A DNA stretch of 64,000 nucleotides from Mageeibacillus indolicus UPII9-5 (GTDB lineage: Bacteria > Bacillota > Clostridia > Saccharofermentanales > Fastidiosipilaceae). The notes under the pieces were generated by a model, which was not told the origin of the DNA, did not search any database, and saw only the letters and a list, made by a program, of their open reading frames with translations. Below, one piece after another: positions 25,217-43,074 of this stretch (position 1 is its first letter; the number at the start of each line of letters is the position of its first letter). The stretch spans positions 1,674,001 to 1,738,000 of the forward strand of contig NC_013895.2 of assembly GCF_000025225.2 (NCBI RefSeq), written 5' to 3'. Made by a program: the position numbers and the translations under genes.

Positions 25217-28200
25217 CTAAAACTCGTCCGCCGAGTCAGCGTCGGAACCAGCTTCCGGCGCGTCATTTTCCAGATTGCCTTCCGAATTCAGCCTGCCGAC
25301 CCCGAAACCGGCCTCATTCAAACTATCATCGCCCCCGGCTTTGACTGCGGCCGCTTCATCCAGTTCCGCCAGACGGGCAAAATCAAACGAAACATCGTCA
25401 TCATCTTCCGGCAAATTTTGTGCCGAAACTTCCTGATCCTGCATGAAAATCTTCACATCTAGGCACAAGCTCTGCAATTCCTTGACCAAGACTTTGAATG
25501 ACTCAGGCACACCGGACTCCGGCACGCTTTCGCCCTTGACAATAGCCTCATAGGTCTTGGTACGACCGGTGATATCATCCGACTTGACGGTGAGCATTTC
25601 ACGCAATGTGTAAGCTGCACCGTACGCTTTAAGTGCCCAAACTTCCATCTCACCGAACCGCTGGCCGCCGAATTGAGCTTTACCACCGAGGGGTTGCTGT
25701 GTAACCAATGAATACGGTCCGATTGAACGGGCGTGAATTTTATCGTCAACCAAGTGATGCAATTTCAAATAGTACATGATACCGATAGTGATACGTCCAT
25801 CAAAAGGTTCACCCGTGCGGCCATCATACAACACTGTTTTACCATCCGGGTCAATGCCGGCCATCTTAAACGCTTCGCTGACATCTTCCTCCGTTGCTCC
25901 GTCAAATACCGGCGTCGCCACCTTCCAGCCCAGTTCACGCGCAGCCCGGCCGAGATGCACTTCAAGCAGCTGACCAATATTCATACGTGACGGAACGCCC
26001 AATGGGTTCAAAACTATGTCAAGCGGTGTGCCATCCGGCAAGAACGGCATATCCTCTTCCGGCAAGATCCGAGAAATAACACCCTTGTTACCGTGCCGTC
26101 CGGCCATTTTATCACCGACACTGATTTTACGCTTCTGAGCGATATAAACACGCACCAAACGGTTTACGCCATGTTTAAGGTCATCCTTCTCACGGTCAAA
26201 AACCTTGACATCAACAACAATACCTGACTCACCATGCGGCACCCTTACCGAAGTATCACGCACCTCCCGCACTTTTTCACCGAAAATCGCACGATACAGT
26301 CTCTCTTCCGCCGTCAGTTCCGTTTCACCTTTCGGCGTAACTTTACCGACCAAGATATCGCCGGTCCGCACTTCCGCACCGATACGCACGATGCCGTGTT
26401 CGTCCAAATCTTTCAGGGAGTCATCGCCAACATTCGGGATTTCGCGGGTAATTTCTTCACTGCCAAGCTTGGTGTCACGGGCTTCGCATTCATATTCCTC
26501 AATGTGAATAGAAGTGTAAATATCCTCTTTTACCAAACGTTCATTAAGCAAAACCGCGTCTTCATAATTGTAGCCTTCCCACGTCATGAAGCCAATCAAC
26601 ACATTTTTGCCCAAAGCCAATTCGCCATTTTCAGTAGATGGACCGTCTGCAATAATATCTCCAGCCTTAACTTTGTCCCCTTTGGCCACCAGCGGACGCT
26701 GATTGATGCAAGTGCTCTGGTTGGAACGACGATACTTAGCCAAATTATACGTGTCGGCAATCCCCGGGCCGCCGTTAACGACAATTTTGTTCGCACTGAC
26801 ATAATCAACCGTACCATCGTGCTTAGCTACCGCACAAACACCCGAGTCCTTGGCCGTACGGTATTCCATACCGGTTCCGATAATTGGTGCTTCCGGTTTA
26901 ATCAAAGGTACCGCCTGACGTTGCATGTTCGAACCCATCAAAGCCCGGTTGGCATCGTCGTTGCCGAGGAAAGGGATCAAGGAAGTGGCTACCGAAACGA
27001 GCTGCTTCGGCGAAACGTCCATCAAATCGACCATGGACGGTTCAACTTCCAAAAACTTATCAAGCAGACGAACCGTTACCTTGTTGCAGGTGAAATGCCC
27101 CTCCTCATCCAATGGAGCATTAGCCTGTGCGATATAGTAGTTGTCTTCCTCGTCCGCCGTCATATAACGGACTTCATCCGTAACCACCCCTCGCTCTTTG
27201 TCATACACTCGATACGGCGTCTCAATAAAACCGTATTCATTTACCCTAGCATAGGTGGCCAACGAGTTGATCAAACCGATGTTCGGACCTTCAGGTGTTT
27301 CAATCGGGCACATACGACCGTAATGCGAAGAATGAACGTCACGCACTTCAAAGTTGGCACGATCACGGCTCAAACCGCCAGGGCCCAAAGCAGATAGACG
27401 CCGCTTGTGCGTAAGTTCAGCTAAGGCGTTTGGCTGATCCATGAATTGCGAAAGCTGTGACGAGCCGAAAAACTCTTTAATTGCTGCACTGATCGGCCTT
27501 GTGTTCACCAACATCTGTGGGGTTGCCGATTCCGCATCGGCCAAAGTTCCCATGCGCTCACGTACGACCCGTTCCATACGCGCAAAACCGATCCGCACCT
27601 GATTCTGCAGAAGTTCGCCAACCGAACGGATACGCCGGTTGCCCAAGTGGTCAATGTCGTCCGTGCCGCCAATGCCGTGATCAAGTCCGAGGAAATAGCT
27701 GATTGAAGCAATGATATCCTCAATTGTCAAATGTTTCGGCATCAAGTCGTTTTTGCGTGCTTTTATTGAAGAACTCAAAGTAGCCACAACATCGTCTGAA
27801 GCTTCAGCTTCAGCCAAAAGCTCCGCCAAAACTGATGTGCGTACCATCTCATTCAACGGGGACAGATCGACCTGTGCCGCTTTCGCCGCCCCCAAGACGC
27901 GTTGCAGATAAAGTCTTGCGTCAACCCGATTGTTGCCGATAATTTTGAAGACCTTCTCGTCTTCCATCACCGACTCACCGATAACCACAATTGCATGAAC
28001 CGGAACCACGTTAATTCCAGCATTTTGAATTTCTTTAGCAACTTCGGCGTTCAAAATATCGCCGGCCATCGCCAAAACTTCCCCGTTAGCATCGACAATA
28101 TTTTCCGCTGCCTTGTGCCCAACCAGCCGAGCCGCCAAGCCTAGCTTTTTGTTTAATTTATAGATACCTATACGCGCCAAATCATAGCGTTTCGGATCGA

Positions 28201-28984
28201 AAAACATGTTGTGCAGCAAAGTTTCCGCACCTTCAATCGACACCGGTTCGCCCGGACGCAACTTACGGTACAGCTCCGCCAACCCCTCTTCCTGACTCCG
28301 ACAAGTGTCTTTGGCTAAAGTTGCGGTAATCGGCGTTTCATCCCCGAAAACTTCAATAATTTCTTCATTAGTTCCCATGCCGAGTGAACGCAAAAACACC
28401 GTCAGAGGGAATTTACGGGTTCGATCAATACGGACATACAAAGTATCGTTGGCATCTGTTTCATATTCTAGCCAAGCTCCACGGTTAGGAATTAGCTGTG
28501 AAGTATAAAGTTCCTTGTCAGTCTTGGGATCCTTTAGGTTGGCAAAGTACGCGCCAGGCGAACGAATCAGCTGTGAAATTATGACCCGCTCCGCGCCGTT
28601 GATAATAAAAGTACCCGTGTCCGTCATAATCGGGAATTCGCCTACATAAATCACCTGATCCTTGATAACGTCATCACGGCGGTTATGCAAACGCACCTTC
28701 ACCCGCAAAGGCGCAGCATAGTTCGCATCACGATCTTTACACTCAGGAATATCGTAGGTCGGATGATCTATATCGAACTCTTTATCAATGAAAGATAATT
28801 CAATATCACCGGAAAAATCAGTTATTGGCGATACATCCTGCAAAACTTCCATCAAACCTTCGTCCAAAAACCATTGATATGACTTTTTCTGAACTTCCAC
28901 CAAGTCCGGCATATCAATGACTTCACGCAGTTTGGAATACGTCATGCGCTCTGTGCGACCTAATTTAATCGAACGCAACATCAT
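25217..28984 (-). CDS. rpoB: DNA-directed RNA polymerase subunit beta
   Basis: The beta subunit, 1255 residues, with the usual markers: the rifampicin region [48 protein letters not shown], the [25 protein letters not shown] block and the C-terminal [25 protein letters not shown]. The rif region has the wild-type look. An acidic tail of about 60 residues rich in Glu and Asp follows the core. A GAGAGGTGA ribosome site precedes the double ATG. The gene is not preceded by rplJ and rplL, unlike in many clostridia. Confidence 0.98.
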
Positions 28985-29086
28985 TTCACCTCTCTGTTAT
29001 TTTGCTTACGCAGTTTATGTTATTTATCTATATTTACGTCATACTCACTAAAACCGCAGTTGCAGCGGCGTATGAATGCATTTTCC

Positions 29087-29116
29087 ATAATAACATTTAT
29101 GAAAAAACACTGTCAA
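29087..29116 (-). promoter_or_regulatory. Promoter of rpoBC
   Basis: On the minus strand TTGACA (29116-29111) and TATTAT (29092-29087) are separated by 18 bp, about 100 bp upstream of the rpoB start. Confidence 0.75.
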
Positions 29117-29397
29117 TTAAGGCGATGCAAATTTAACACAAGTTGTCAACATTCTACATTTCATAATTTGTAAAGGAAATTTGCGCGAAAAATTAGTTGA
29201 TTTTCACAACGATGATTTTATCTCGAGATACACGATTCTCGCAAATGCTTATATCAGCTCTCACGCAGCGAAATAATACGCCGCACGCTGAGCCAGCCGC
29301 ATTGACGCGGCGAAAGATGCGGACGCACTAGCCGCTCTGGCTCGGCGGGATAATTCAGAAATATATCATCCATAAAGGAAATCCCTGCCGAGACAAT
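29117..29397. other. Intergenic region upstream of rpoB
   Basis: I see no gene. It links the rpoBC promoter to the IS3 remnant and holds GC-richer bases around 29270-29340 with no clear coding frame. Confidence 0.5.
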
Positions 29398-29592
29398 TAT
29401 ATGTACCCATAAAACTGGACACATGTTTTGACACGGGGCTAACAGATGGAAGCCATCCTGTACTTTACAGGAGGCATCCATTTCGTTCTCTTCCGGATCC
29501 TGCAATTGTTCTAGTAATATATATACTCACTTACTGCCTTTGAGAGTTCCTTAAAGAAACAGAACTCTTTTTCATATCCATAATACATCACA
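29398..29592 (-). mobile_element. 3' end of a decayed IS3-family transposase with its terminal repeat
   Basis: Read on the minus strand, the bases encode a typical IS3/IS150 OrfB ending: YGYEKEFCFFKELSKAVSEY, then IYY, a TAG stop where a Tyr is expected, and RTKWMPPVKYRMASIC before the end of the element. The last 25 bp (29398-29422) contain ATGTACCC and ACTGGACA, the same ends as the other IS3 traces in this window. Bases 29423-29592 are nearly identical to 35183-35352 and in the same orientation. No complete transposase is present. Confidence 0.75.
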
Positions 29593-29721
29593 GGAATTTG
29601 TAAACCGTTCTGTCCTAGGAACAGTGTAGAGAAAATAGAAAAGAATAAAAATTCACAACTTGCAAGAGAAATTGCAAAACAATATGAAGTTACATATTTT
29701 ACGAATTAATTTTATCAATTA
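29593..29721. other. AT-rich spacer between IS3 remnant and exporter gene
   Basis: No gene or strong terminator was seen in this short AT-rich stretch downstream of the peptide cluster. Confidence 0.4.
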
Positions 29722-31365
29722 TTAATTTTGAACTGGCAGCGCAAGACAAATGCATTCATCACAAAACTCAATAAAGTCCTTATCGTGCGTCGATATAATA
29801 ATTATTTTCTCCTTCTTTAATAATTGCAGGTGTTCCCTCAAGTGCTTGCGGCTGGCTCTGTCCAATGCAGAAGTAGGTTCATCCAATATCAAAACATCAG
29901 GTTTTTTCATTAATGCGCGCAAAATGGCGATTTTCTGCTTCTCACCGCCGGATAGGCTGCTTGCCCTTTCATTGATGATTGTATCAAGGCCATTGGGAAG
30001 CGATTCAATAAATTCTTCCAGACCAAGGCAACTGCACAACTCATGGAAATTATTCTCATCTAATTCAGCCTGCTCATCAATGGTAAGATTATATCTAAGC
30101 GTGTCAGGGAGCAGCATCGGCTCCTGCTCGGATATACCTATATATTTTCTTCGCACCTCACACATATCAAGCAAGGATATACGCTTATCATTGTAAAACA
30201 CTTCTCCCGTAAATTCATCTATATACAGGCCAACCAGCACATTTATAAGCGTGCTTTTACCGGAACCATTTTTGCCAGTGAGCGCGTATATATTACCTTT
30301 TTTAAAAGTGACGCTGTAGTCATGTAAAACACAGTTATCTCCATAAGAAAATGTTAGATTTCTAGCTTCGATACAATCTATGCCTTTTGGCACCTCCTTA
30401 CCGTTGCTTTTTTCATTAATCTCGAATATCTCCCTGAGACGGTTATAAGAAACCATATTCTCCTGTACGCTTTGCCCCAAGGTAAAGAAATACCTCGTAG
30501 CTGACATCATCATACTAAAGTAGCTTGATATAATGGCAAAATAACCCACAGAAAGGCTCCCATTTATAACGGATATGCCACCAAACAAAAACACCAGAAT
30601 GTTAGCAACTGTCATTATTATTTTATCAACGCTTGAAAATAGATAGTTGGTTTTTTGATATATTAATGCTTTATTCAATAAATTCTCAAACACATGGGTA
30701 AGACGCTTAAAAAAACCATTCCCGACTCCATGAAGCTGAATGAACTTCACATTGCATAATTGCTCAGTTAACTTCCCAAAGTATCTTGATTGTTCTTCCT
30801 TATATTCGTAGCTCACCTTAAAGAGCGGTTTCTTAAATATGTTGTAGCTCAAAAAATACAGTGCATTTAAGATGATAAGCACTATTCCAAGATATATACT
30901 AAACGAAAATATTAAGGCTATCGGAGCTATCACCATGACGGCGTTTATTACAATCTGCTGCATTACTCCAATGCAGAAAATTATCAAAGCGTTTGAATCA
31001 CTGTTGATCCGCTGGTTTAAATATGCTGTATCCTGACGCAGTATAAAGCCTAGTGGTACGTTCTGCACATGTTTTATAGCATCTGCATTAAGTCTGAATG
31101 CAATTTGGGTTTGTAGCTTCATATACAGGCGGCTACTCACATATCCAAGTATCAATCCCACTATGCTGAATAAAGCAAAAATTAAAATATACCTGCCGAG
31201 AAAAGACGTATCTGTTGCCTGTATGAGTCGGTCTATAAAACTGCCAGAGATATAGGGGAACACCACTGTGGTCATACTGGCAAATATACATATGAGTATA
31301 TAAAGTGTCAATATTCCCTTCTTTTCATTAAGGTATTTGCCACAAAAGTTAAATATCTGTTTCAT
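29722..31365 (-). CDS. ABC exporter (fused membrane and ATPase domains) of the Cys-rich peptide cluster
   Basis: A 547-residue half-transporter: six hydrophobic helices in the first 300 residues, then an ATPase with Walker A GKNGSGKST, signature LSGGEKQKI and Walker B VLILDEPTSALD. It has no N-terminal C39 peptidase domain, so leader removal must be done by another enzyme, plausibly the S41 protease encoded just upstream. It is the last gene of the peptide cluster and probably exports the mature peptide. Its base use is AT-rich like the rest of the island. Confidence 0.88.
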   Translation of the reverse strand: MKQIFNFCGKYLNEKKGILTLYILICIFASMTTVVFPYISGSFIDRLIQATDTSFLGRYILIFALFSIVGLILGYVSSRLYMKLQTQIAFRLNADAIKHVQNVPLGFILRQDTAYLNQRINSDSNALIIFCIGVMQQIVINAVMVIAPIALIFSFSIYLGIVLIILNALYFLSYNIFKKPLFKVSYEYKEEQSRYFGKLTEQLCNVKFIQLHGVGNGFFKRLTHVFENLLNKALIYQKTNYLFSSVDKIIMTVANILVFLFGGISVINGSLSVGYFAIISSYFSMMMSATRYFFTLGQSVQENMVSYNRLREIFEINEKSNGKEVPKGIDCIEARNLTFSYGDNCVLHDYSVTFKKGNIYALTGKNGSGKSTLINVLVGLYIDEFTGEVFYNDKRISLLDMCEVRRKYIGISEQEPMLLPDTLRYNLTIDEQAELDENNFHELCSCLGLEEFIESLPNGLDTIINERASSLSGGEKQKIAILRALMKKPDVLILDEPTSALDRASRKHLREHLQLLKKEKIIIISTHDKDFIEFCDECICLALPVQN

Positions 31366-31400
31366 TGCGATCCACCTCGATACGCTATATTCTCAGCAGT

Positions 31401-32843
31401 TTAATCTTTATCTCGCCATATCGCTTCAAGACAAGTTTCCAGCGCGGTCATTCCTGCCTTAGTTTCAATATCCGGTCTTGTGCCTGCAATGGCGTTGCAG
31501 CTTCCGTCAGGATTTAAAGAAAAATATGGGTCAAAGTACACGAGCAGACCGCTGTTAGGCAAGGCAAATGTATATGGCTGCCCCCCACGTCCGTTTCCGC
31601 CCGTTGTTTTGCCTACAAGCCTTGCAAAGCCCGTAGTCTTGCAAAAGGAAGCAAATGCATCAGAAGCGGAGTAATTGCTCCTGTCAATCAACATCCATAA
31701 TTGACCTTGAAAGCAAATGCTATTATCGTGTTGCGTGCAAGTGTTTTCGTGATTGTAAAACTTCAGATGGCCGAAATCTTTTATATTTAAATCCGGAAAT
31801 GTATTATCCCAAGTCTCGCTATCGATTTCTTTAAACTCGGACGGAAACGGCTGCTCTGCATCCCACATAAAACGGTTAAACTTGCCATCCTTAACACCGA
31901 TCATACCAGATTGTTTCAAAGGCTCGCAAATTATGTGTGATACGATTCCATCCCTCCACACGCCGGTGTTCCCTCCACCGTTTCCCTGTATGTCTATGAT
32001 TATATCATCCGCCTCGCTGTTTGCTTCAAAAAAATCCTGAATCATCTTGATCGCAATCGGCGTACATTTTGGAGACGACCAAAGGAAACCTGTAATTTTT
32101 ATGTAAGGAATACCTTCTCCAACCGTAGCCTCTATAATCGTTTGTCTTACTTCTTCATACAATGATTGTTCTTGCGGGTATAGCTGTGTACCACCTTCGG
32201 TAGAGGCAGGTGTGGGGCTTGGCATTAAGTTTTTATAATAGTCATAAAAAGTTTTGACCTTTTGGCTTTCTATTATGGATAGCATCTTGGATAGCATATC
32301 GACTTCTTCCTTACTGTCGTGGTTCTGATTTTCTCCGCTCGATTCCACTACCGCTCGAAAAGTATCGACCATGCGTTGATACAAAAACGGTTGAATGACA
32401 TATAGATGGCCTATACTTTTAAACTGCTTCAAGCAGTTATTGATTACATTTATATAATTATCCTGAAGTATGGATGGTCCCCTACACACACTTATCAGCT
32501 CAGTACGGTAAGTATCCCTTACCTCCTTCCAATCCAGCCCCAGTTCATTTTTTATCGTTTCAAAATATGGGTAATTATCCTCCAACATTTCCCATAAGGC
32601 ATCATAGTCTTCAAGCGCTTGCTGTTTAGATAGAATTAACTGCTCTCCATCTGAACTAACTTTCAGTTCTGTTTCATATGGGAGTGGAAATTTGTCATAA
32701 TCAGAAAACCTGTTTGTAGTAGTCTTATCAGGCATTCCAGGAGAATGCTCTGGAATGCTATGATTGGCGATTAATCCATCGCAGGAGCATAAAAGGGGCA
32801 TTAGCATTGATAAAACTAAGATAAATAACTTATATGGCTTCAT
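31401..32843 (-). CDS. S41-family protease lipoprotein of the peptide cluster
   Basis: A 480-residue protease with a lipoprotein-like start (LLCSC near residue 20). The C-terminal half has the S41 (tail-specific protease-like) core: DIIIDIQGNGGGNTG, the catalytic Ser392 in NYSASDAF and Lys412 in GKTTGG. It lies between the precursor peptide and the exporter and likely trims the peptide at the outer face of the membrane. The last 30 residues (AGTRPDIETKAGMTALETCLEAI) also occur in a broken copy upstream. The start has GAAAGGAA as ribosome site. Confidence 0.85.
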   Translation of the reverse strand: MKPYKLFILVLSMLMPLLCSCDGLIANHSIPEHSPGMPDKTTTNRFSDYDKFPLPYETELKVSSDGEQLILSKQQALEDYDALWEMLEDNYPYFETIKNELGLDWKEVRDTYRTELISVCRGPSILQDNYINVINNCLKQFKSIGHLYVIQPFLYQRMVDTFRAVVESSGENQNHDSKEEVDMLSKMLSIIESQKVKTFYDYYKNLMPSPTPASTEGGTQLYPQEQSLYEEVRQTIIEATVGEGIPYIKITGFLWSSPKCTPIAIKMIQDFFEANSEADDIIIDIQGNGGGNTGVWRDGIVSHIICEPLKQSGMIGVKDGKFNRFMWDAEQPFPSEFKEIDSETWDNTFPDLNIKDFGHLKFYNHENTCTQHDNSICFQGQLWMLIDRSNYSASDAFASFCKTTGFARLVGKTTGGNGRGGQPYTFALPNSGLLVYFDPYFSLNPDGSCNAIAGTRPDIETKAGMTALETCLEAIWRDKD

Positions 32844-32935
32844 GCTTTTGTGGTTCCTTTCAAATTCCGGTCATCCTAAGTATAATACTGCGGACAGCAG
32901 TTATTTATTAACCATTAGAGACATCCGATGTGCGA

Positions 32936-33154
32936 TTATCCGCCATAAGGCTCAGGAACCATTTTACCAACGCAGGCTCTGGCTCCACACAAACTGCAAT
33001 TAGCAGCACATAAAGTTTCACAGTTAGCAGCGCATAGCGTTTCACAGTCTGCTCCACATAACGAAGCACATTCTGCCCCGCATACATTAATCAAACACTT
33101 TATAAAGCAGTATTGATCTATCATGCCATCTTGTGGATGTACCAAATATTCCAT
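32936..33154 (-). CDS. Cys-rich RiPP precursor peptide
   Basis: A 72-residue peptide with a perfect AAGGAGGTGA ribosome site. The first 15 residues lack cysteine and look like a leader (MEYLVHPQDGMIDQY). The core holds twelve Cys at 16, 20, 25, 29, 33, 37, 41, 45, 49, 53, 56 and 61, mostly every fourth residue in repeats such as CGADCETLCAANC. The end is PEPYGG. It sits downstream of the radical-SAM gene and before a protease and exporter, so it is the likely substrate, with thioether bonds expected by analogy to clostridial Cys-rich peptides (ranthipeptide or CLI_3235/Clo7bot-like). The bonds themselves cannot be read from DNA. Confidence 0.82.
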   Translation of the reverse strand: MEYLVHPQDGMIDQYCFIKCLINVCGAECASLCGADCETLCAANCETLCAANCSLCGARACVGKMVPEPYGG

Positions 33155-33253
33155 AAAATCACCTCCTTTTTAAATAAATTAAGCTTATGCTTATTTGATG
33201 TTTTGTCTTATGGTTAATAATGCAACGCTGCCCGCAATATTATCAATATATTT

Positions 33254-33586
33254 CTATATATTGCTGCTAATCCCATCTTGAATTTGCTCCAGACAAACTT
33301 CCAGCGCGGTCTGGCCTTCCTTTGCTTCAATGTCAGGACTTGTGCCCACGATAGCGTTATCAAATAACCTTGTCGCGATATATTGGTTATCGATAAGATA
33401 CTGCTCGATTTCCTCAGTGTCCGGTCTGTCTTCCGGTGCCGTTGTTTGGAGACGACTTCCTGCGTTGTTCAGACTGCCCAAATATTCATACGATTGCCGC
33501 ACTTTATTGGAATCCATAATAGTGCGCATTTGCCTTTGATTTTCATTCTGATTTTCTAATAGTATCGGAACAACGACGTGAATCAT
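33254..33586 (-). pseudogene. Decayed S41 protease paralogue, core deleted
   Basis: An open frame of 110 codons whose first part (ENQN, then MDSNKVRQSYEYLGSL) resembles the middle of the neighbouring S41 protease (IIESQKVKTFYDYYKNL) and whose last 26 residues (VGTSPDIEAKEGQTALEVC) match that protein's C-terminus at about 17 of 26 positions. The whole catalytic core between them, with the Ser and Lys, is missing. The frame still starts in an ATGA overlap with the radical-SAM stop. It is probably the remains of a second protease gene after an in-frame deletion; a new small function cannot be excluded. Confidence 0.7.
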
Positions 33587-34926
33587 GCCATATCGTCATC
33601 TTTATTCGCTGGCTTTATTTTGTTATTTTTCAGATAGAACGATATAACGCAGATATAGTCTTTCAATCTATAACGCATTACATTACACCGAGTGTCCTTT
33701 CTAAATAATCTCCGGCTAGGGCATCCGCCCATACAAATAGGTAAGTATTTACATTTTGAGCATTCGCTATCGTGCGTGGGGTCATACATCAAGTATTGTA
33801 AAAGCGGAACCATCGCGGCATCAGATGCAGGGGCTAACAAGTCGCCAACTGTTCTTTCTTTAACCCCTATGTCATTCCAGCACTTATAAAGCTTCCCGTC
33901 CGCATTTATAACGAGGTTGCTGTTAGAATCAGCTCCGCAAGAGTTTGCTATTAGTCTTGGATATGAATTACTTATATCTGAAGAGTTTCGTATTCTATAG
34001 TCAAATTCAACGGCCGAAAATTCTTCTGGATGGTAGCAACTGCTTTCGGCGTAGCAATCGTTTGAATTTTCTACCATACCCAAGTATGGATAAGCCACAT
34101 CGTTCAAATCGTTTTCCTTTAATATTTTCAGAACCTCATCTACTTGATCTGCATTATCCTTATCCGTGTTAATCCTGATGCTTACCTTGCAAGGCAGTAT
34201 TTCTTTCGCTGCCCGTAAGTTTGATATAATCTTGTGAAATGTTGGCTGGCCTCCTGCAAGCGGCCTTCGTTTGTCGTGTTCTTCTGGCGCACCGTCCACC
34301 GTAATCTGTGTGTGCATAATCCTTAGATCCTTCAGGCGTTCGGACACCTTGGTTGTAAGCAGATAGCCATTTGTTACTATTCCAGCATCGTATCTGATTT
34401 TATGCTCTTCACAAATCTCCAAAAACTTATTCGTTAGATTTTCAATTATGTCTAATGCCAGAAGCGGTTCCCCTCCATACCATGTAACGGACAGTCGCAT
34501 AATGGATTCCGCTCGGGCCTTAACAAGTTCTACAACCTTTTCCTGAACACCTTCGGACATTACAACGGGTTTAAGGCTCTCCTTTTCATAGCAATAGATA
34601 CATCGAAAATTACAATCGGAAGTTGGGGCTATGGTTAATCCTAAACTAGAAGTGTTGTAGCGGCTTTGAAGAAGATTGAATCGAATTAATTCCAATTCGT
34701 CTATGTCATCACGCAGTATATATCCGCCGTATTTCAAGTCCTCTAATAATTTTTCATCGGAGATAGGCTGTCCTCGCTCTTTAAAATTTTGAAAATATAT
34801 ATACTTTTCTTTATCAATTAGCGCAAGGGCATTTGTACGTGAATTATAGAGTATGCGTTTACTTTCGTCGTCCTCATAGGGGAACTCAAAATTGTAGCTA
34901 GATTCTTTGTAATTTAGACCGTTCAT
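33583..34926 (-). CDS. SPASM-domain radical-SAM peptide maturase
   Basis: A 447-residue radical-SAM enzyme. The S-adenosylmethionine cluster motif is CNFRCIYC (Cys105, Cys109, Cys112), followed by the GGEPLL strand in TWYGGEPLL. The C-terminal part has a SPASM-type set of cysteines, seen as SCGADSN...KCWND and CSKCKYLPICMGGC, for extra [4Fe-4S] clusters. The first 90 residues resemble a peptide-binding entry domain. Such enzymes join Cys sulfur to a carbon of another residue in a precursor; the precursor is most likely the Cys-rich peptide encoded next. The ATG at 34926 has AAGGAGGGG upstream. Confidence 0.9.
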   Translation of the reverse strand: MNGLNYKESSYNFEFPYEDDESKRILYNSRTNALALIDKEKYIYFQNFKERGQPISDEKLLEDLKYGGYILRDDIDELELIRFNLLQSRYNTSSLGLTIAPTSDCNFRCIYCYEKESLKPVVMSEGVQEKVVELVKARAESIMRLSVTWYGGEPLLALDIIENLTNKFLEICEEHKIRYDAGIVTNGYLLTTKVSERLKDLRIMHTQITVDGAPEEHDKRRPLAGGQPTFHKIISNLRAAKEILPCKVSIRINTDKDNADQVDEVLKILKENDLNDVAYPYLGMVENSNDCYAESSCYHPEEFSAVEFDYRIRNSSDISNSYPRLIANSCGADSNSNLVINADGKLYKCWNDIGVKERTVGDLLAPASDAAMVPLLQYLMYDPTHDSECSKCKYLPICMGGCPSRRLFRKDTRCNVMRYRLKDYICVISFYLKNNKIKPANKDDDMA

Positions 34927-35005
34927 TATAGCCCCTCCTTCACATATCATAAATTCATGTAGAATTTCTTTTGCATAGTAATGTACTTATATAATTATAC
35001 GTATA

Positions 35006-35033
35006 ATTATATATATTAGTATCGCAATGTCAA
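35006..35033 (-). promoter_or_regulatory. Promoter of the Cys-rich peptide operon
   Basis: On the minus strand TTGACA (35033-35028) and TATAAT (35011-35006) are separated by 16 bp, about 80 bp upstream of the radical-SAM gene. Both boxes are consensus. Confidence 0.75.
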
Positions 35034-35036
35034 CTA

Positions 35037-35203
35037 AATATCTGAAGCGTATTATATATCTGCATATTTGGAAGAATATGATATCACCGTCGACCCGAGA
35101 ACACTCCGCAAAGACATCGAACAGCTAAGAAAGTTCGGCGTTGATATTGCCAAAGACCGCAAGGCTCAGAATCTCTACCATTATGTTTTGACACGGGGCT
35201 AAC
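35037..35203 (+). pseudogene. Remnant of an HTH/WYL-type regulator
   Basis: The plus strand encodes, without a start, SEAYYISAYLEEYDITVDPR and then TLRKDIEQLRKFGVDIAKDR. This matches the N-terminal helix-turn-helix of WYL-type regulators (TIYRDIxxLxxxG). The frame runs into the IS3 remnant at 35183 and stops. Only about 50 codons remain, so it is a broken piece left at the edge of the island. Confidence 0.7.
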
Positions 35204-35482
35204 AGATGGAAGCCATCCTGTACTTTACAGGAGGCATCCATTTCGTCCTCTTCCGGATCCTGCAATTGTTCTAGTAATATATATACTCACTTACTGCCTT
35301 TGAGAAGTCCTTAAAGAAACAGAACTCTTTTTCATTTGCATAATACATCACATTCTTCATCCTGGACATGGTGCCCATTTACCTTGTTTGTAAAGATCTA
35401 CAAATTCCAATTTGAATTCAAAACTATAGCGTATAAAAACACCCTCCTTACTGATTTTTTCCAGTAAAGAGGGTACATATCA
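35183..35482 (-). mobile_element. Internally deleted IS3-family element
   Basis: On the minus strand the element starts with a terminal repeat (35482-35461) and a hairpin (stem arms 35474-35462 and 35453-35441). An OrfA start in which ATG has become ATA follows (RYSFEFKLEFVDLYKQGKWA, 35434-35357), then directly the OrfB 3' end (35352-35183) shared with the copy at 29.4 kb. The middle of about 1 kb is gone and the right end is cut by the regulator fragment. It cannot move by itself. Confidence 0.72.
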
Positions 35483-35662
35483 CAAGACCGGCGAGGGATT
35501 TTTCACTTGCTTACATATTTTGTATGGCACTAATCAGTTGCGTAACTTCGTCAACTCCGATTAATCTACTGCCATCGGCCAGCCACCGCAGCTTTAACTG
35601 CAAATTTGATCCAGCCGCGGTAGTCGCCAACAATTAGCTGTCGAGTTCAGAGCAACACGCAC
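35483..35662. other. Spacer after the IS remnant
   Basis: No gene seen. A GC-rich imperfect inverted repeat around 35570-35620 could be a weak terminator for the secreted-protein operon, but it lacks a T run. Confidence 0.35.
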
Positions 35663-36730
35663 TCAGTTAGCGAAACGCTTGGCCGGAGCTGCAGCAACTG
35701 CAACAACTGCAGCCGCCGTGTTCGGCACATCATCCTTGTTCGGATCTTTTTGCTTGATTTTCTCCGCCAATTCCGCTGCCCCGACTCCCAAAGGCGTTAC
35801 TTTGGCACCGTAATCGCATAACGGACAAGAACGCAGGCTGAACTTCTTCTGCTTGGCAAAAGCCTCCAACAGGTGGATCTTGGCCGCCTCGACCTTGGCT
35901 TGCCGGGTCAATTCGCCCACCGTGTGATCCGCGATTTGTTTGTTACCATAGTAGAGCATCAGTTTCTCGATCAGGCCACGATATAACGGGGTCATGATCT
36001 TTTTGTCGATCAGAGTGCGAATCGCCAAAACGTTGTCTTTCAACTCGCGCCCGGTCACCCGATCCATGTATTCGATGCCAAGCGCCTCGTACTTCGGCTT
36101 TTCATTCAGGTTTTTGCTAGCCAACTCAGCATTCGTCTTGATCAATTTGTCCAGAGCTTGCGCATCTTTGTCGAGCGCGTATATTCTCGCCGCACTGAGC
36201 ACCGCATCTGTAATCACCGGTACGGGATTGCGGTAGAATTGGTACGGTTCGTTGGGATCGCTAGTCTTACGTGAACGTTTATAGCGATAGGTGTCGATGC
36301 GTTTGATTCCTTCCGCCAATTCCATCAATTTACGCGTGGCGCAGATTTGGCGATTCAGTTCGTCCAAACGAAATTGGGCTACACATCTTGCCGTGCCGAG
36401 CGCACCAACCACGTCGGCGTCCTGGGCGACCGATTTTTGCGCTTCATCGTATCTTTTCAGCGTCCGGTAAAACTCCGGCGTAGCAAATGACTTATATATT
36501 ACGTTCGGCTCAATCATGCCGTTTTGGTCAGCTGCAGCTTTCGCTCCGCCATTCGCGCCGTTTGCGTTGTTTGCCTCAGCCGCCTTGCCGCGGTTCTGTT
36601 CCTCAAAAAGCTGATCTACCAGTTTCGCTTCCTCGCGGCTGAATGATGTGTATTCCAACGCTGTCACCCCGCTCGTGGCCAGCATGGTCATCGTCAAAGC
36701 TCCAGCTAGTATTTTTATTGTTTTTCCCAT
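35663..36730 (-). CDS. Secreted protein of unknown function, partner of the giant surface protein
   Basis: A 355-residue protein with a signal peptide (TIKILAGALTMTMLATSGVTAL), then a mostly helical, charged body and an Asn/Gly/Ala-rich linker near residue 60. I recognise no domain. Near the C-terminus is CPLCDYG, a CxxC pair. I chose the ATG at 36730, nine bases after AAGAGG; in-frame starts at 36739 (ATG) and 36757 (TTG) are possible. Its frame overlaps the end of the 2106-residue gene, so both are made from one transcript and may act together on the cell surface. Confidence 0.7.
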   Translation of the reverse strand: MGKTIKILAGALTMTMLATSGVTALEYTSFSREEAKLVDQLFEEQNRGKAAEANNANGANGGAKAAADQNGMIEPNVIYKSFATPEFYRTLKRYDEAQKSVAQDADVVGALGTARCVAQFRLDELNRQICATRKLMELAEGIKRIDTYRYKRSRKTSDPNEPYQFYRNPVPVITDAVLSAARIYALDKDAQALDKLIKTNAELASKNLNEKPKYEALGIEYMDRVTGRELKDNVLAIRTLIDKKIMTPLYRGLIEKLMLYYGNKQIADHTVGELTRQAKVEAAKIHLLEAFAKQKKFSLRSCPLCDYGAKVTPLGVGAAELAEKIKQKDPNKDDVPNTAAAVVAVAAAPAKRFAN

Positions 36731-36753
36731 ACGTGTCATCCTCTTATCGCGCC

Positions 36754-39700
36754 TCAATCCAAATGGCAGGACGAGCAGCCGCCCTGTCCATTCGTTTCAG
36801 TTTGCCTACCGTTTCCACCAAAGAATTTCCCGACTTGGCGTTTGATGTAGCTTCCGGCTTTGCCGGCCGCCTCGCTTACGGCCGTATAGGCTCTGTTGGC
36901 CACCGTATAAGCCTTGTTCATGCCCATTCTGGCGCAGTCGCAAATCGCTACAACCGGTGGGAAGCCGTAGGACTGTTCGCGGTTGATCACCTTGAATCCA
37001 TCGAGGCAGCGCCCGATGTAGATCGCGTCAAATTTCTTGCCACCATAGCTGAGCGTGCCACCGTCTTCGCCTATTTCGTGCAAATTGTAATCATAGGTGC
37101 GTGGGCTGGTGCGCCGGAATTTCAGTCGTACGGCTTCTATCCAGCCATGCCACTTGTCGCCTGCCGTCAACGCCGTGCTTCGGGTTGACAAATGCTTAGC
37201 GATAACCGGATCCAAGAAGCGCATTTCCATCGTCAATGGTTTCGGGTTGGCCGCCGAGCCTACGGACAGGGTGTTGAAATCGAGCGGCTGGCCGTATTTC
37301 CCGTACCAAAACTTGTGTACTTCAACATCTATAGTTGGCACTTCTGAGTTCAAAACTACTAACTCTTTCAAATTCTCAAGTGCTATCCCTTTCCCGACTA
37401 CAGATTGAGGCTTGACCCAATTATCCTTGTCCGTTCCTTCTTTGATACCACCAAGCTCTATTTCAAACAGTTTATTTTTCTCGATCCAGACTGCCTGTCC
37501 GGCCGCTTGTCCGGCCGCCTGTCCGGCCGCTTGTCCGCCTGCTTGACCGGCCGCTTGTCCGCCTGCCTGTCCGGCCGCTTGTCCGCCTGCCTGTCCGGCC
37601 GCTTGTCCGCCTGCTTGTCCGGCTGCCTGTCCGGCCGCTTGTCCGGCCGCTTGTCCGCCTGCTTGACCGGCCGCTTGTCCGCCTGCTTGACCGGCCGCTT
37701 GTCCGCCTGCTTGTCCGGCCGCCTGTCCGCCTGCCTGTCCGGCCGCTCTCACCTTCACCTTGTGATACATGAACACTCCGGACTCGTAGCCATCAGTTTC
37801 CTCACGAGCTGCATCTTCCGTAGCTGTGTACTGATAACAATCGTGCGGCCGCCCATCAATCCCTTTAAATTTTTCAAATATATTTGTCAGCCAATTTTCA
37901 CTGCCCAGCTTTACATCGTCATTGTATTTATAGATTAGCTTTCTTACCTTCTTATTAACATCAACTGCCTGCTGCCACGGGAACTTACCAAGGGCAATCG
38001 AGGCGGGATCTTGATAAACATTCGGATCATGTGGCTTATTACCTTCCTCAACTTCCGCTTGCGTGTCCTCAGCCAAAAAGTCGGCGAAAACTAGCTTCCG
38101 TTTGTTTTCATCATCCTTGTTTTTCTCTATTTTCAGCCAGTTCACCACCATAGGCGTTCCCAGCGGTAAGCCAATCCGCCTGTCATCATTCTCAGTTTTT
38201 TTAGCCAAATACCAGCCAAGACGCTCAGGATGCTCTGTTTCTTCCGCGGGGGTCTGCAAATCTGCATCACTTATTTCAACCATATTGGGCTGAATTTCTT
38301 TCCCATTAGCATCCTTATACTTACCATTTGGTACCAACTTTATTTTAGTGGCCGCCGGTTGCATGAGTGGTTTTAACTGCGATTGCATTTCTGCCTGGCC
38401 CGGCAAAGCCTCATCTAATTCTTTCTCCAAATCCTCTTCCTGATCTGTAGCCAAGCCATCATTGTAAAGCGCATCTGAATATATGTTGTGCCCACGCTGA
38501 TCAAGCCAAATCTTCTTGACCGCAAGCTTCTTTATCGGGACGATGTCCGGGATCGGAATATTCTCATCGGCAAAACCGTCCACAACATCTACAACATATT
38601 TGTTACGCTCAACCTTGACCCCGGCTGCACCGGCCCCCGGATTTGCATCATCCTTTTTAGGATTCCGCGATCCGACGAAATCTCCGGTAAACTCCAAATT
38701 ATCCTTAGGTAATTCGATTACCACACGGTGATAGCCGTCAGGGGTCTTCGCCGCTTCAGAATTGCGCAGCAAAACACGCACATCAACGTATCTGAATTCT
38801 ACGCCTAGTTTACCACTGCCCGGTTTCCCTTTGATATCCGCAATGCCATCCTTAGGAATTTCCTGACCGTTAATCGTCTTAATATCGCCCTTGTCATCCA
38901 GACCGAAGCGAACGGTTTGCTGAGCCTTATCTTTTCTTTTCAGCATAAAACCAGGGATCACGTCAAAGTTAGTCGTATCAAAATCACGCACGTTATTCTT
39001 GACCTTCATCGGATCCATAATCATAAAATCCGACTCTTGCCCAATTTTACCCTGCTTGCCCACACCGCCGCCTTCATCATCTTCGGTGGTTTCGCAAATA
39101 TACTTCTTATAGTAAAAACGTTTCTTAAACGGCTGATAATAGAACCGGAACACATTAGGGTTGGGCGGGAATTTGCCGTCTGCTTCTTTTTCAAAACGCT
39201 TAATCAAAGCACTGCGCACAAATTTATTCGTATTGTACGCGCCACTATCAATCGAATATTTGCCATCCGGTATCGCCCCGATCTTGGCGAGCGTTTTCGG
39301 ATCCACAATTCTAATCCACTGATCGTTTTGCTCCGTGGCAAAAGCCGCTCCATAGGAATCGGGCATAAAACTTTTGTTGATCGCAAAACGCCCTTTTTCG
39401 CCTACTTTAGTTCCCTGCATACCGTATATCTCAGTGTCAGCCGCCTGTAAGCCGTCTTCCGGGTCGTTCACCGGTACTCCGTTCTCCTCCTTGTAAGGGA
39501 TCTCCTTATCCTGCTTGTTATAAAAATGATGCTCCACGCGCACCGGCACAGTCGGGTTCTTAATCCACACGGCCTTCGCCATTGCCGGTTCTTCCATTTT
39601 GATGTCAAAAGCAAATACATCAGCAACTTTATGCGGATTTGTCATATCATACTTATAATCCTGATCATGCTGATAGCCGTATTTTTCCCAACGCAGGAAC

Positions 39701-42700
39701 GTGTAGCCCTCACACTTCGGTTCCGATATGGGGAAAATCTTAGCCCCCGCCTTAACTTTAAAGGTTTTTTTCTGATGCCCTTCTGTCAACTTGCCTGTTG
39801 GCCCATTTTTCTCTTCGGTATAGTCTTTTTTGTTATATTTGGCATCCGTAACCGTGCCTTGTTCCAGCTCTTCATACTCAACCTTGCTACCGGCAGGTGG
39901 ATTTAGATCAATCGTGTAATCATAGATGCTGTTATCCCCCCACTTTGCATAGATGTTGAGTCGATAGTCGGGCATTGTTGCGTTTTCAGATAGCGGAACT
40001 TCACAGGACGGATCCATATAATATCCAATAAGTTTATAGCGCGGATCGTAACCTAACTGTTCTGCTGAAATCCCCTGCTTGAATTGATCCTGACCTAGAG
40101 CCCAAACAATTTTTTCTTCAAATTCGACTGGGTCTTGTCGAGTCTCGTAATTTCCGTTTCTTTTTTTATGATTTAACAACAAATCATATTTATTTCTAGT
40201 ATATGTGTAATCCAAGAATCCGACCGATTCAAAATCAACATCACCCAAACTCATACCATGTGATTCATACCAATTTTGCAATCTCTTTTCGGCAGGATTT
40301 TTGTATTCGTCAGGGTCTTCACCTTCAGTGGGCTGATATATTTCTTCGAATTTGTCATGTAACTCATCTTCATCAAATTTATCTTGCCTTTTCTTTTTCT
40401 CTACCGATTTTAACCCCCTTATTTCTGGAGCTTCAAATTCATAGGAATCAAAGGCTGTATCAGTTTTCCGGTAGTAAAGATCCCGATAAGTATAATCAAA
40501 TTCTTTTTTTGTATTGCCTTCATCGTCTTCAGTGGGCTCGGTCGCTAATCGTTTTACCCCCATGAGAACATATATTAAGGTTGTACTATTATTATCCTTG
40601 TCTTCATCCCCAGTGAAAGCAAGAATAGCCGGCGGAGTATAAGTCGATCCGTTATAATCATCCGTTTGCTCAAAATTATATGTTTTAGAATCATCCACAT
40701 AGCCCCATTCGTTCGCCTGACAAAATGCATCTGACAAAATTATTTTTTTGTCAGCCCTTAACGGCGGCGTATCTCGGTAAGGTGGATGTCCGTTGCTTTG
40801 CGCCATAGCGCTCCAACCTAAAAAGCGAACCGGATCAACCAAGTAATCTGTATCATTTCCCCTGACAAGCTCCGCCGTGTTGAGCGGCAAAGGCCAGACC
40901 TGGTCAAGTTCTTGGCCAAAGCGCACCTTCACTTGGTAGGGTTTATCCTCCCCCTCGGCTAAGCTGGTTGGTAATCCCCCATTTTCATCCTTTTTATAAC
41001 AATCTACCGGAGGTTTAATCCATGGACTCAAGGTTGCAGTTCTATCCAAGATTCGATTTCCTTCAGGATCCTCTTCATCAGTATAACGCAAGGCCATACG
41101 GTACTCGCGCCGCTCAGTTTTTATGTTAGCCGTCTTACCTCCTGGTACACCGAACAACAAGATGAACCGCTTGCGCCGAATAACAACATTAATATTGGTA
41201 CTACCATCGACCTCAACCTTTGTTTTTCCCGCATTCAGTAATTCCGTCTGTTCCCTGTCATACCTATAAACTTTCTTGCGACCGTTAATGCCGGTTCCCT
41301 CATCTGGGAACTGTACAATTGTGGCATTCTTTATAAAGTTATCCGCTAAGTTCTTATAGTAGGCATTGTCAAAACTAACTGCCGTAACATCATCATGTTT
41401 CGATTCAGCAAATAAGAAACTGTACATCCGGGAAAGACGCTTCTTCTCATCCTTTTCCAAAGTGTCTGCCTTAGTGTAATCTGCCTTTTCCAACCAATAT
41501 GTTATCCGATAGTTGGCTTCTCTGTTCGCCTTCCAAATTGCAGTGAATTTTACATCTTCACCCGGCATACTATAATCGAGCGTCGTGTCATTAAGCAAAC
41601 ATTTCTTCAGATACTCAACCGCATCCGCCGGCGCCAATTGCAAGGCACGAATTCTGTTTTCAGCCTCATCTTTGGTCTTATATGATTCAGGCAATACACT
41701 ACTGTCTTTAGCAAGTGCATCAATTTTATCATCATATTTTTTCTTCTGATCTGCAGCCTTATACGCCTTATTCGCTTGCGCACTGTCGACAGGAGTCAAA
41801 TCCTTGTCCGCCATCCAGCCTAAAAACTCATAACCCGGTTTTTCAATATGCTTATTAGGGATACGAAAAGCTGTGCCAGCCAAATGAGCTTCACTATTCA
41901 CTTTTTCTTCGCAATCAGTGTCAAAGAGAACCTTCTTGATTTTATGCTTATAGTGCATATCCACTTGGAAGTCCTCACTATCCCCGACAACAACCTTTTT
42001 TCCTTCATCAAGGCATTCATATTTCTCATTCAATTCCGGTAAATCAAGTTTTTTTAGGGTGTAGCGTTCACCGACCGAAGCAGTCACTGTTTCACAGCCG
42101 TTTTGATCAGCTTTTCCTTGGAAATCATTTATTCCGGCTTCACTAAGTTTGTGAGTACCTTTTTCATCTATTACAACATGACGCACTTTAAATTTTATCT
42201 GGTTAGGCTGATAAAGGAAGTCCTCACTATAACGATAACGATTGCTTCTAGCTTCCGCCTGATTGGCAGAATTTGCCAGCTCAATCAAATTTTCATACAT
42301 GTATTTCCCCGGCTCGGCTGTTTTGCCGGCACCGGATTGAAAAACAAGCGTACGCGCCTCCCCAGCTCCACCGGCAAGTTTTGTCCCCGCCGGATCTTTG
42401 GCCGATACCGGATCCATATAACCTTCCACGTGTGGGAAAGCGTACAGAATATTTGCTCCGCCGTTCAGCCACGGATTCTTTTCGCCAACCGTTATTTCAT
42501 AAGGCTGATAAAATTCCGCTTGGGTGTCAGGTTTGCCGGCCTCCTTAGAAACTAGTTTCATATTCATCTGATAGGTGTAAAGTTTAGGTTGTGCCGGATT
42601 TTCGATTTGCGCATTCGCTGCAGCCTTATCGACCGGATCCGGGCCTATGAACCGCGCTTTTTTCGGCAAATTTTCATTTAGGTAAATACCGTTTGATAGA

Positions 42701-43074
42701 TTCTTTTTATCTTTCGGATCAGGCGATTCGTGCAATTCAAGATCTGATTTTTCATCATATTTAGGGGCTTCGTTAACCCAGCTGAAACCACTGGTTTTGG
42801 ATCCAGCTTTTTGTTCGTCTTTCCCCGGTTTGCCCCCCACGACTGTACCGCCGTTATTGCCGAGCTGACCGCCGTCGGCCGTGGCTCTGGTACTACTAGC
42901 ATCGCTACCCGCCGCTGAACCGCTTACAGCCGATTCAACTACCGTACTGACACTGCCATTGCCACTGCCTGTTTCATCCAATGCACGCACCGCCATAAGG
43001 CCGCTAACATCAACCGATGTCAAAACAACCGCGACGCTCAAACCGGCAGCAATTTCCCTTAACCATTTCCTCAT
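36754..43074 (-). CDS. Giant secreted protein with InlB-type, Cna-B-like and Gly-Gln-Ala repeat regions
   Basis: A 2106-residue exported protein. A signal peptide (LREIAAGLSVAVVLTSVDVSGLMA) is followed by a Ser/Thr-rich linker and many Listeria-Bacteroides repeats with the GYEFLGWMADKDLTPV and FTAIWKANREANYRITYW pattern, spread over most of the length. A stretch of about 80 residues at 1777-1859 is made only of Ala, Gly and Gln (AAGQAGGQ units). The end is CSSCHLD, with no LPXTG signal or membrane helix, so wall attachment must be different or absent. AGGGGA precedes the ATG. It is probably an adhesin or matrix protein; no enzyme motif is seen. Confidence 0.82.
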   Translation of the reverse strand: MRKWLREIAAGLSVAVVLTSVDVSGLMAVRALDETGSGNGSVSTVVESAVSGSAAGSDASSTRATADGGQLGNNGGTVVGGKPGKDEQKAGSKTSGFSWVNEAPKYDEKSDLELHESPDPKDKKNLSNGIYLNENLPKKARFIGPDPVDKAAANAQIENPAQPKLYTYQMNMKLVSKEAGKPDTQAEFYQPYEITVGEKNPWLNGGANILYAFPHVEGYMDPVSAKDPAGTKLAGGAGEARTLVFQSGAGKTAEPGKYMYENLIELANSANQAEARSNRYRYSEDFLYQPNQIKFKVRHVVIDEKGTHKLSEAGINDFQGKADQNGCETVTASVGERYTLKKLDLPELNEKYECLDEGKKVVVGDSEDFQVDMHYKHKIKKVLFDTDCEEKVNSEAHLAGTAFRIPNKHIEKPGYEFLGWMADKDLTPVDSAQANKAYKAADQKKKYDDKIDALAKDSSVLPESYKTKDEAENRIRALQLAPADAVEYLKKCLLNDTTLDYSMPGEDVKFTAIWKANREANYRITYWLEKADYTKADTLEKDEKKRLSRMYSFLFAESKHDDVTAVSFDNAYYKNLADNFIKNATIVQFPDEGTGINGRKKVYRYDREQTELLNAGKTKVEVDGSTNINVVIRRKRFILLFGVPGGKTANIKTERREYRMALRYTDEEDPEGNRILDRTATLSPWIKPPVDCYKKDENGGLPTSLAEGEDKPYQVKVRFGQELDQVWPLPLNTAELVRGNDTDYLVDPVRFLGWSAMAQSNGHPPYRDTPPLRADKKIILSDAFCQANEWGYVDDSKTYNFEQTDDYNGSTYTPPAILAFTGDEDKDNNSTTLIYVLMGVKRLATEPTEDDEGNTKKEFDYTYRDLYYRKTDTAFDSYEFEAPEIRGLKSVEKKKRQDKFDEDELHDKFEEIYQPTEGEDPDEYKNPAEKRLQNWYESHGMSLGDVDFESVGFLDYTYTRNKYDLLLNHKKRNGNYETRQDPVEFEEKIVWALGQDQFKQGISAEQLGYDPRYKLIGYYMDPSCEVPLSENATMPDYRLNIYAKWGDNSIYDYTIDLNPPAGSKVEYEELEQGTVTDAKYNKKDYTEEKNGPTGKLTEGHQKKTFKVKAGAKIFPISEPKCEGYTFLRWEKYGYQHDQDYKYDMTNPHKVADVFAFDIKMEEPAMAKAVWIKNPTVPVRVEHHFYNKQDKEIPYKEENGVPVNDPEDGLQAADTEIYGMQGTKVGEKGRFAINKSFMPDSYGAAFATEQNDQWIRIVDPKTLAKIGAIPDGKYSIDSGAYNTNKFVRSALIKRFEKEADGKFPPNPNVFRFYYQPFKKRFYYKKYICETTEDDEGGGVGKQGKIGQESDFMIMDPMKVKNNVRDFDTTNFDVIPGFMLKRKDKAQQTVRFGLDDKGDIKTINGQEIPKDGIADIKGKPGSGKLGVEFRYVDVRVLLRNSEAAKTPDGYHRVVIELPKDNLEFTGDFVGSRNPKKDDANPGAGAAGVKVERNKYVVDVVDGFADENIPIPDIVPIKKLAVKKIWLDQRGHNIYSDALYNDGLATDQEEDLEKELDEALPGQAEMQSQLKPLMQPAATKIKLVPNGKYKDANGKEIQPNMVEISDADLQTPAEETEHPERLGWYLAKKTENDDRRIGLPLGTPMVVNWLKIEKNKDDENKRKLVFADFLAEDTQAEVEEGNKPHDPNVYQDPASIALGKFPWQQAVDVNKKVRKLIYKYNDDVKLGSENWLTNIFEKFKGIDGRPHDCYQYTATEDAAREETDGYESGVFMYHKVKVRAAGQAGGQAAGQAGGQAAGQAGGQAAGQAGGQAAGQAAGQAAGQAGGQAAGQAGGQAAGQAGGQAAGQAGGQAAGQAAGQAAGQAVWIEKNKLFEIELGGIKEGTDKDNWVKPQSVVGKGIALENLKELVVLNSEVPTIDVEVHKFWYGKYGQPLDFNTLSVGSAANPKPLTMEMRFLDPVIAKHLSTRSTALTAGDKWHGWIEAVRLKFRRTSPRTYDYNLHEIGEDGGTLSYGGKKFDAIYIGRCLDGFKVINREQSYGFPPVVAICDCARMGMNKAYTVANRAYTAVSEAAGKAGSYIKRQVGKFFGGNGRQTETNGQGGCSSCHLD
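37497..37744. repeat. Tandem repeat encoding Ala-Gly-Gln/Gly-Gly-Gln units
   Basis: About 248 bp of units near CCGGCCGCTTGTCCGCCTG in the giant protein gene. The units alternate AAGQ and AGGQ. High identity between copies suggests recent slippage or recombination; it is coding, not a CRISPR array, because the copies have no spacers. Confidence 0.9.

Follow-up and report, generated by a model that had tools for sequence, protein, structure and literature searches.

A candidate thioether-peptide operon beside the Clo7bot family that pairs a radical SAM maturase with an S41 lipoprotein

What peptide is produced, and how is it released, by a locus in which a radical S-adenosylmethionine (SAM) maturase and a cysteine-rich precursor are accompanied by a lipoprotein of the S41 peptidase family and an ABC exporter? 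This question is raised by an operon in the stretch of DNA analysed here (hereafter the window: 64,000 nucleotides, bases 1,674,001-1,738,000 of a genome that is one contig of 1,809,746 bases), in which five open reading frames (ORFs) follow one another along the minus strand in the order maturase, 110-aa ORF, precursor, S41 lipoprotein and ABC exporter. The four components named in the original prediction are present: the maturase matches PF04055 (66.1 bits) and carries SPASM-type cysteines by eye, the S41 protein is assigned to its family by PF03572 (67.0 bits, cut-off 24), and the exporter matches PF00664 and PF00005. The reading that we favour, and regard as rather probable, is that of a horizontally acquired operon for a ribosomally synthesized and post-translationally modified peptide (RiPP) of the Clo7bot neighbourhood, whose product would be thioether-bridged, exported and trimmed by the S41 protein. 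The protease pairing is the unusual part, as the earlier reading had also held; the peptide and its enzyme stand beside Clo7bot, which is known and little studied.

The precursor is real and not a product of chance. The twelve-Cys ladder claimed for it was borne out by the count, with 12 Cys in 72 residues at spacings of 4, 5, 4, 4, 4, 4, 4, 4, 4, 3 and 5; a Cys content of at least 12% is reached by three of the 306 window ORFs of 40-120 aa, the two others having 6 Cys each, and five single-base shuffles of the window yielded 1799 such ORFs, none with at least 10 Cys at that density. Part of the ladder is made up of a 24-nt tandem unit, so the ladder probably grew by duplication. The leader motif, MEYLVHP, is of the Clo7bot type M-K-[YF]-h-V-x-P with E for K. 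Across all comparison loci (L numbers below; genomes carry G numbers) and the window, M[KE][YF][LIVM]VxP was found within the first 15 residues of 17 of 9060 distinct short ORFs, all 17 having at least 4 Cys, and in none of the 8053 ORFs having fewer; this motif was drawn up after inspecting these peptides, and the result is a consistency test and not a blind one. Many Clo7bot peptides (e.g. most of those in L128) escape the motif because K replaces V. CxxxC runs are also seen in the peptides of L101, L102 and L128 (G237, G251 and Paraclostridium bifermentans), and the precursors of G237 and G018 carry the same leader as that of the window. As a separate observation, several precursor tails in L165-L169 end in a C-x-P-x-x-x-G-Y-x-P-like pattern (by eye), a possible conserved follower, and L171 (9115-16330) holds one maturase and then five MKYIVNP precursors interspersed with 461-462-aa proteins, one of which was checked and had no Pfam match.

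Among 81 NCBIfam families, the maturase scored best against Clo7bot (TIGR04334, 327.9 bits), followed by TIGR04463 (283.4) and CefB (225.7). Membership in a CLI_3235-like family, as first proposed, did not hold up: the maturase reaches 107.7 bits against CcpM (TIGR04068), and the leader and ladder are Clo7bot-like. For reference, a Clo7bot locus in G251 has a maturase of 759.7 bits and peptides above the TIGR04333 cut-off of 31 (three at 40.2-47.5 bits; a Clo7bot peptide of L183 gives 28.2), and a Paraclostridium bifermentans plasmid bears an annotated Clo7bot locus with seven annotated peptides. A tree of 29 maturases joins the window enzyme to L101 and L114 (G237 and G018) at a support of 86/66, below the strict mark; the CtpM pair L102/L128 is recovered at 100/100, without a resolved position relative to the window enzyme. 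We place the maturase and precursor beside Clo7bot, not inside it. A predicted model of the maturase built from 8 sequences (mean predicted local distance difference test score, pLDDT, 72) has its best PDB matches in 5why/5wgg (E 1.9e-17, template modelling score about 0.6, 17% identity), entries on thioether bond formation in peptide maturation whose enzyme we take to be CteB. Thioether formation by the window enzyme is suggested because its model is kin to this thioether-forming enzyme, and by its strand-helix pattern the N-terminal part of the model reads as a leader-binding domain resembling a RiPP recognition element (RRE).

The S41 protein retains Ser392, found in all 24 rows of its alignment, and the His146 column is His in 23 of 24. 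Its lipoprotein signal implies that it should act outside the membrane. A single-sequence structure model had a mean pLDDT of 40.2, was unusable and was not used. The earlier five-gene order stood for the four named components and failed for the fifth ORF (33586-33254), a remnant of an S41 gene. In its tail, 19 of 26 residues (55 of 71 nt) agree with the C-terminus of the S41 protein, and another stretch can be aligned in matching order, though less well (18 of 68 residues in a gapped alignment); the ORF has neither the signal nor the active-site middle of the S41 protein. The tail signature GTxPD....G.xAL..CL..I is common to the 110-aa ORF, the S41 protein and the nearest S41 protein outside the window, L056 (G091). 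As a separate maturation gene the 110-aa ORF was accordingly rejected, and the operon formerly held two S41 genes. Over the 26 codons of the tail, nonsynonymous and synonymous divergence (dN 0.19, dS 1.13) are what past selection on both copies would give, though the codons are few.

The pairing was then set against other loci. A table of maturase loci was compiled with 45 rows, 44 of them distinct (L003 is the L170 contig); flanks are short at several (e.g. L109, L126, L159, L169 and L185), and the table omits L007-L016, loci with flanks of about 1.5 kb (L018-L035 unless obtained with wider flanks) and all but two of the 23 viral loci. L007-L016 were searched separately and held no S41 gene. 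The one other S41-paired locus in the table, L165 of G488, carries on one strand an S41 gene, the maturase, an exporter without a C39 domain, a second S41 gene and two small peptides with Cys, found by eye. The S41 tree joins the two proteins of G488 as sisters (100/98), nested in a branch of their own family (98/94), and pairs the window protein with that of G091 (100/100), with a long-branch warning on the window protein's side; the tree thus separates them, and the two recruitments look independent. The S41 gene is present twice in both S41-paired loci, one copy now being broken in the window.

It had also been proposed that the S41 enzyme takes the place of a C39 exporter domain. The C39 model is absent among the 15 Pfam matches of the window exporter and from all 12 exporters inspected, which comprise that of the window and 11 beside related maturases (L003, L101, L114, L125, L130, L102, L128, L164, L165, L166 and L168, that of L125 being cut by the record end). 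A C39 replacement was rejected, since none of these exporters has C39.

Taken together, these results suggest a sequence of steps. The RRE-like N-terminal part of the maturase would bind the precursor at the latter's short leader (M-E-Y-L-V-x-P), and the SPASM radical SAM enzyme would form thioethers between the sulfurs of the every-fourth-residue Cys and residues nearby. The peptide would then leave through the C39-free ABC exporter with its leader still on, and the S41 lipoprotein, anchored outside the membrane, would trim it as the candidate leader protease. A further and more tentative proposal, which we hold possible and somewhat doubtful, is that S41 lipoproteins form an unlisted RiPP-trimming class, recruited independently at least twice into Clo7bot-like operons, that works outside the membrane on the radical-SAM-modified peptide after export, the Glu loss described below suiting the rigid twelve-Cys ladder.

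Several results weigh against the reading of an S41-trimmed, Clo7bot-like product. The maturase lies under the Clo7bot cut-off (600 bits), and the precursor has no NCBIfam or Pfam match up to E 0.1, TIGR04333 included. S41 enzymes use Ser-Lys or Ser-His-Glu catalytic sets. In 21 of 24 alignment rows a Glu lies no more than two residues from the Asn450 column; it is absent from the window protein and L056 (L073 has a gap at this position, the alignment being counted by eye), and the window protein has no Lys where C-terminal processing proteases have one; with the usual Glu missing and no Lys, S41 activity is not assured. An S41 gene occurs in only one of the 44 other distinct maturase loci tabulated, and the S41 protein was on that count rejected as a standard partner. 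Wide flanks were obtained for 17 of the 24 S41 places outside the window, and these 17 same-class neighbourhoods held no comparable maturase, with one weak match (E 2e-6, L093). With 3 and 5 Cys, the peptides of G488 show neither a ladder nor the full leader motif. None of the unit's ORFs was recognised as a regulator or an immunity gene.

Four alternatives were weighed; the likelihoods given for them are not mutually exclusive. The S41 protein might serve self-protection or clean-up by degrading the peptide at the producer surface, with a housekeeping protease removing the leader. Such a role would suit a lipoprotein anchored at the surface by its signal, the 43 of 44 other tabulated loci that do without an S41 gene (some with short flanks), and the doubling of S41 genes in both paired loci. 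It is harder to reconcile with the position of the gene inside the operon, between precursor and exporter, and with three Clo7bot loci in which the gap between maturase and exporter holds an MA-peptidase-like protein (PF13485 at 20.1 bits in L102, 24.8 in L128 and 24.5 in L183, all below the cut-off of 32.4). We consider this role unlikely, although it survives best of the four. At L125, the place between maturase and precursor is taken by a DUF4097 protein. Agr-type genes adjoin related maturases in L125 (6450-9234) and L171 (4803-7351), with AgrB in both by Pfam, a hint at quorum control of some such peptides.

The origin of the operon bears on the second alternative, namely that the S41 genes, of a lipoprotein kind widespread in these bacteria, are passengers which arrived with mobile DNA and that other proteins mature the peptide. 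The unit is flanked by 170-nt direct repeats that code for the final 49-55 aligned residues of a transposase, presumably of the IS3 family; a long copy of this gene at 179-180 kb includes HTH_21 and rve domains and is 62-67% identical to the flanking ends. In the 11 other genomes of the family (G001-G011), no match was found at E<=1e-50, with a distant one of 1.1e-31 in G005. The operon was likely gained via transposition or recombination between insertion elements. The transposase remnants on both sides speak for passengers, as does the spread of S41 homologues at E<=1e-20, present in 21 genomes (counting that of the window) of 391 sampled from a larger class, the 17 neighbourhoods above having no close maturase. 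The S41 gene is nevertheless co-directional with the others, part of one unit and duplicated within it, and the association recurs in G488, where genes of a different S41 branch flank maturase and exporter; we think the passenger explanation improbable.

About equally improbable is a metal-binding or redox peptide, in which most Cys would be free or in disulfides with few or no thioethers. The precursor would allow it, having 12 Cys mostly at every fourth residue and, by eye, no Cys-X3-Asp/Glu, the motif used by PapB (PMC9413430, in the part available). Against it stands the dedicated SPASM maturase, an enzyme of a peptide-modifying family whose model is nearest to a thioether-forming maturase. 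A decaying, inactive operon, to which the broken S41 copy, the truncated transposase flanks and the lack of close matches in the other family genomes might point, is very unlikely given the open frames and ribosome sites of maturase, precursor, S41 protein and exporter and the complete promoter match.

The layout of the unit was examined further, and the coordinates are collected in Table 1. The neighbours of the operon are an RNA polymerase beta-subunit gene (25217-28984) on one side and a large repeat-rich gene pair on the other. Short gaps separate its genes; these gaps, the complete promoter match and the S41 duplicate inside the operon count in favour of the reading preferred here. Ribosome sites are good for maturase, precursor and exporter, fair for the S41 gene and poor for the 110-aa ORF; the precursor start has a strong site, aaaaaggaggtgatttt-ATG, and the earlier choice of maturase start, 34926 (gaaggagg), is better supported than the longer alternative at 34950. 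Promoter-like sites in the region number 22, with no excess over the shuffle mean of 22.0, and the single 12/12 site among them is the one at 35033-35006. The G+C content of the unit is 39.9%, that of the window 45.0%, and that of the adjoining kilobases 41 to 54%. Rfam gave no match across 28900-36800.

Table 1. Features of the operon and its flanks (positions within the window)
Feature	Position	Strand	Remarks
Left direct repeat, truncated transposase 3' end	29423..29592		residues 245-293, 67% identical to L080 copy
ABC exporter, membrane and ATPase domains, without C39 domain	29722..31365	-	
S41 peptidase, 480 aa, lipoprotein signal LLCSC (by eye)	31401..32843	-	
Precursor peptide, 72 aa, 12 Cys	32936..33154	-	
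Cys ladder, precursor residues 16-61	32972..33109	-	partly 24-nt tandem unit
Leader MEYLVHPQDGMIDQY, Clo7bot-type motif	33110..33154	-	putative boundary at first Cys
110-aa ORF, second-S41 remnant	33254..33586	-	ATGA overlap with maturase stop
Radical SAM/SPASM maturase, 447 aa	33583..34926	-	PF04055, NCBIfam, tree, predicted model
Sigma-70-like promoter TTGACA-16-TATAAT, 12/12 match	35006..35033	-	upstream of operon
Right direct repeat, same orientation, 97% identical to left	35183..35352		transposase residues 239-293, 62%

Beyond the unit, a 44-aa ORF at 35068-35202 matches HTH_11 weakly (19.4 bits, cut-off 25), abuts the right transposase remnant and is probably a regulator's broken start. 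The repeat-rich pair at 35663-43074 consists of a gene for a 2106-aa protein and a 364-aa companion; relatives of both lie at about 106-108 kb and 176-179 kb (L082 and L080), each time with the same insertion-element end, in a short copy, behind them. The genome also has a SCIFF system of its own at about 903.7-905 kb (L002), with peptide (63.8 bits) and maturase (565.1 bits) both over their cut-offs.

A viral setting was considered and rejected. The single maturase sequence retrieved no relative from viral contigs, and its alignment retrieved 23, mostly distant, none of which has an S41 gene within the stretches examined; a search of viral contigs with the S41 alignment brought up no relative, and PHROGs assigned the precursor to no family. 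A phage collection gave 4 matches, every record being without annotation. L125 and L126 look bacterial; L126 (PQ520162.1), whose title calls it a partial genome of an Enterococcus phage, contains a maturase, the start of an exporter and a transposase-like ORF.

In a literature search of one library, the word Clo7bot occurred in no paper, and none dealt with a radical SAM enzyme, an S41 peptidase and a RiPP together. Within the portions of text available, a review of RiPP leader proteases (PMC10885120) does not use S41 as a word, and PMC8326336, PMC4289311 and PMC13289728 contain nothing on Clo7bot or S41 peptidases. With four genes in a compact operon and one precursor, the locus offers a tractable test of both the product of this maturase branch and RiPP trimming by S41 enzymes. 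Should the host be Mageeibacillus indolicus, a vaginal anaerobe, the peptide might, speculatively, bear on community competition.

Among known systems, the CXXX-repeat target family (TIGR04115) is alike by name, its targets having Cys at every fourth residue, and differs in that the window maturase reaches 59.6 of 350 bits against its model. Ranthipeptides (SCIFF maturases, and freyrasin with PapB) share the SPASM maturase, and the predicted model is nearest to 5why/5wgg; the window maturase nevertheless stays at 75.8 of 425 bits for SCIFF (TIGR03974) and 134.6 of 340 for PapB, and its precursor lacks Cys-X3-Asp/Glu. The CLI_3235/CcpM systems (TIGR04065/TIGR04068) likewise combine a Cys-rich peptide with a radical SAM maturase, yet the CcpM score is far from the cut-off of 500 bits. 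G488, of the same family as G237, is closer, with a maturase 39% identical to that of the window, a C39-free ABC exporter, S41 proteins and small Cys peptides, whereas its two S41 genes are intact, belong to another branch and lie either side of maturase and exporter, and its peptides have no ladder. The Clo7bot/CtpM systems (TIGR04333/TIGR04334) differ from the window in their arrays of 36-70-aa peptides, where the window has one long 12-Cys precursor that TIGR04333 misses, in a maturase score that the window enzyme reaches only in part (327.9 of 600 bits), and in the weakly metallopeptidase-like protein that three of their loci have where the window has S41; they share with it the leader M-[KE]-[YF]-h-V-x-P, the CxxxC ladder, the best maturase match and the C39-free exporter.

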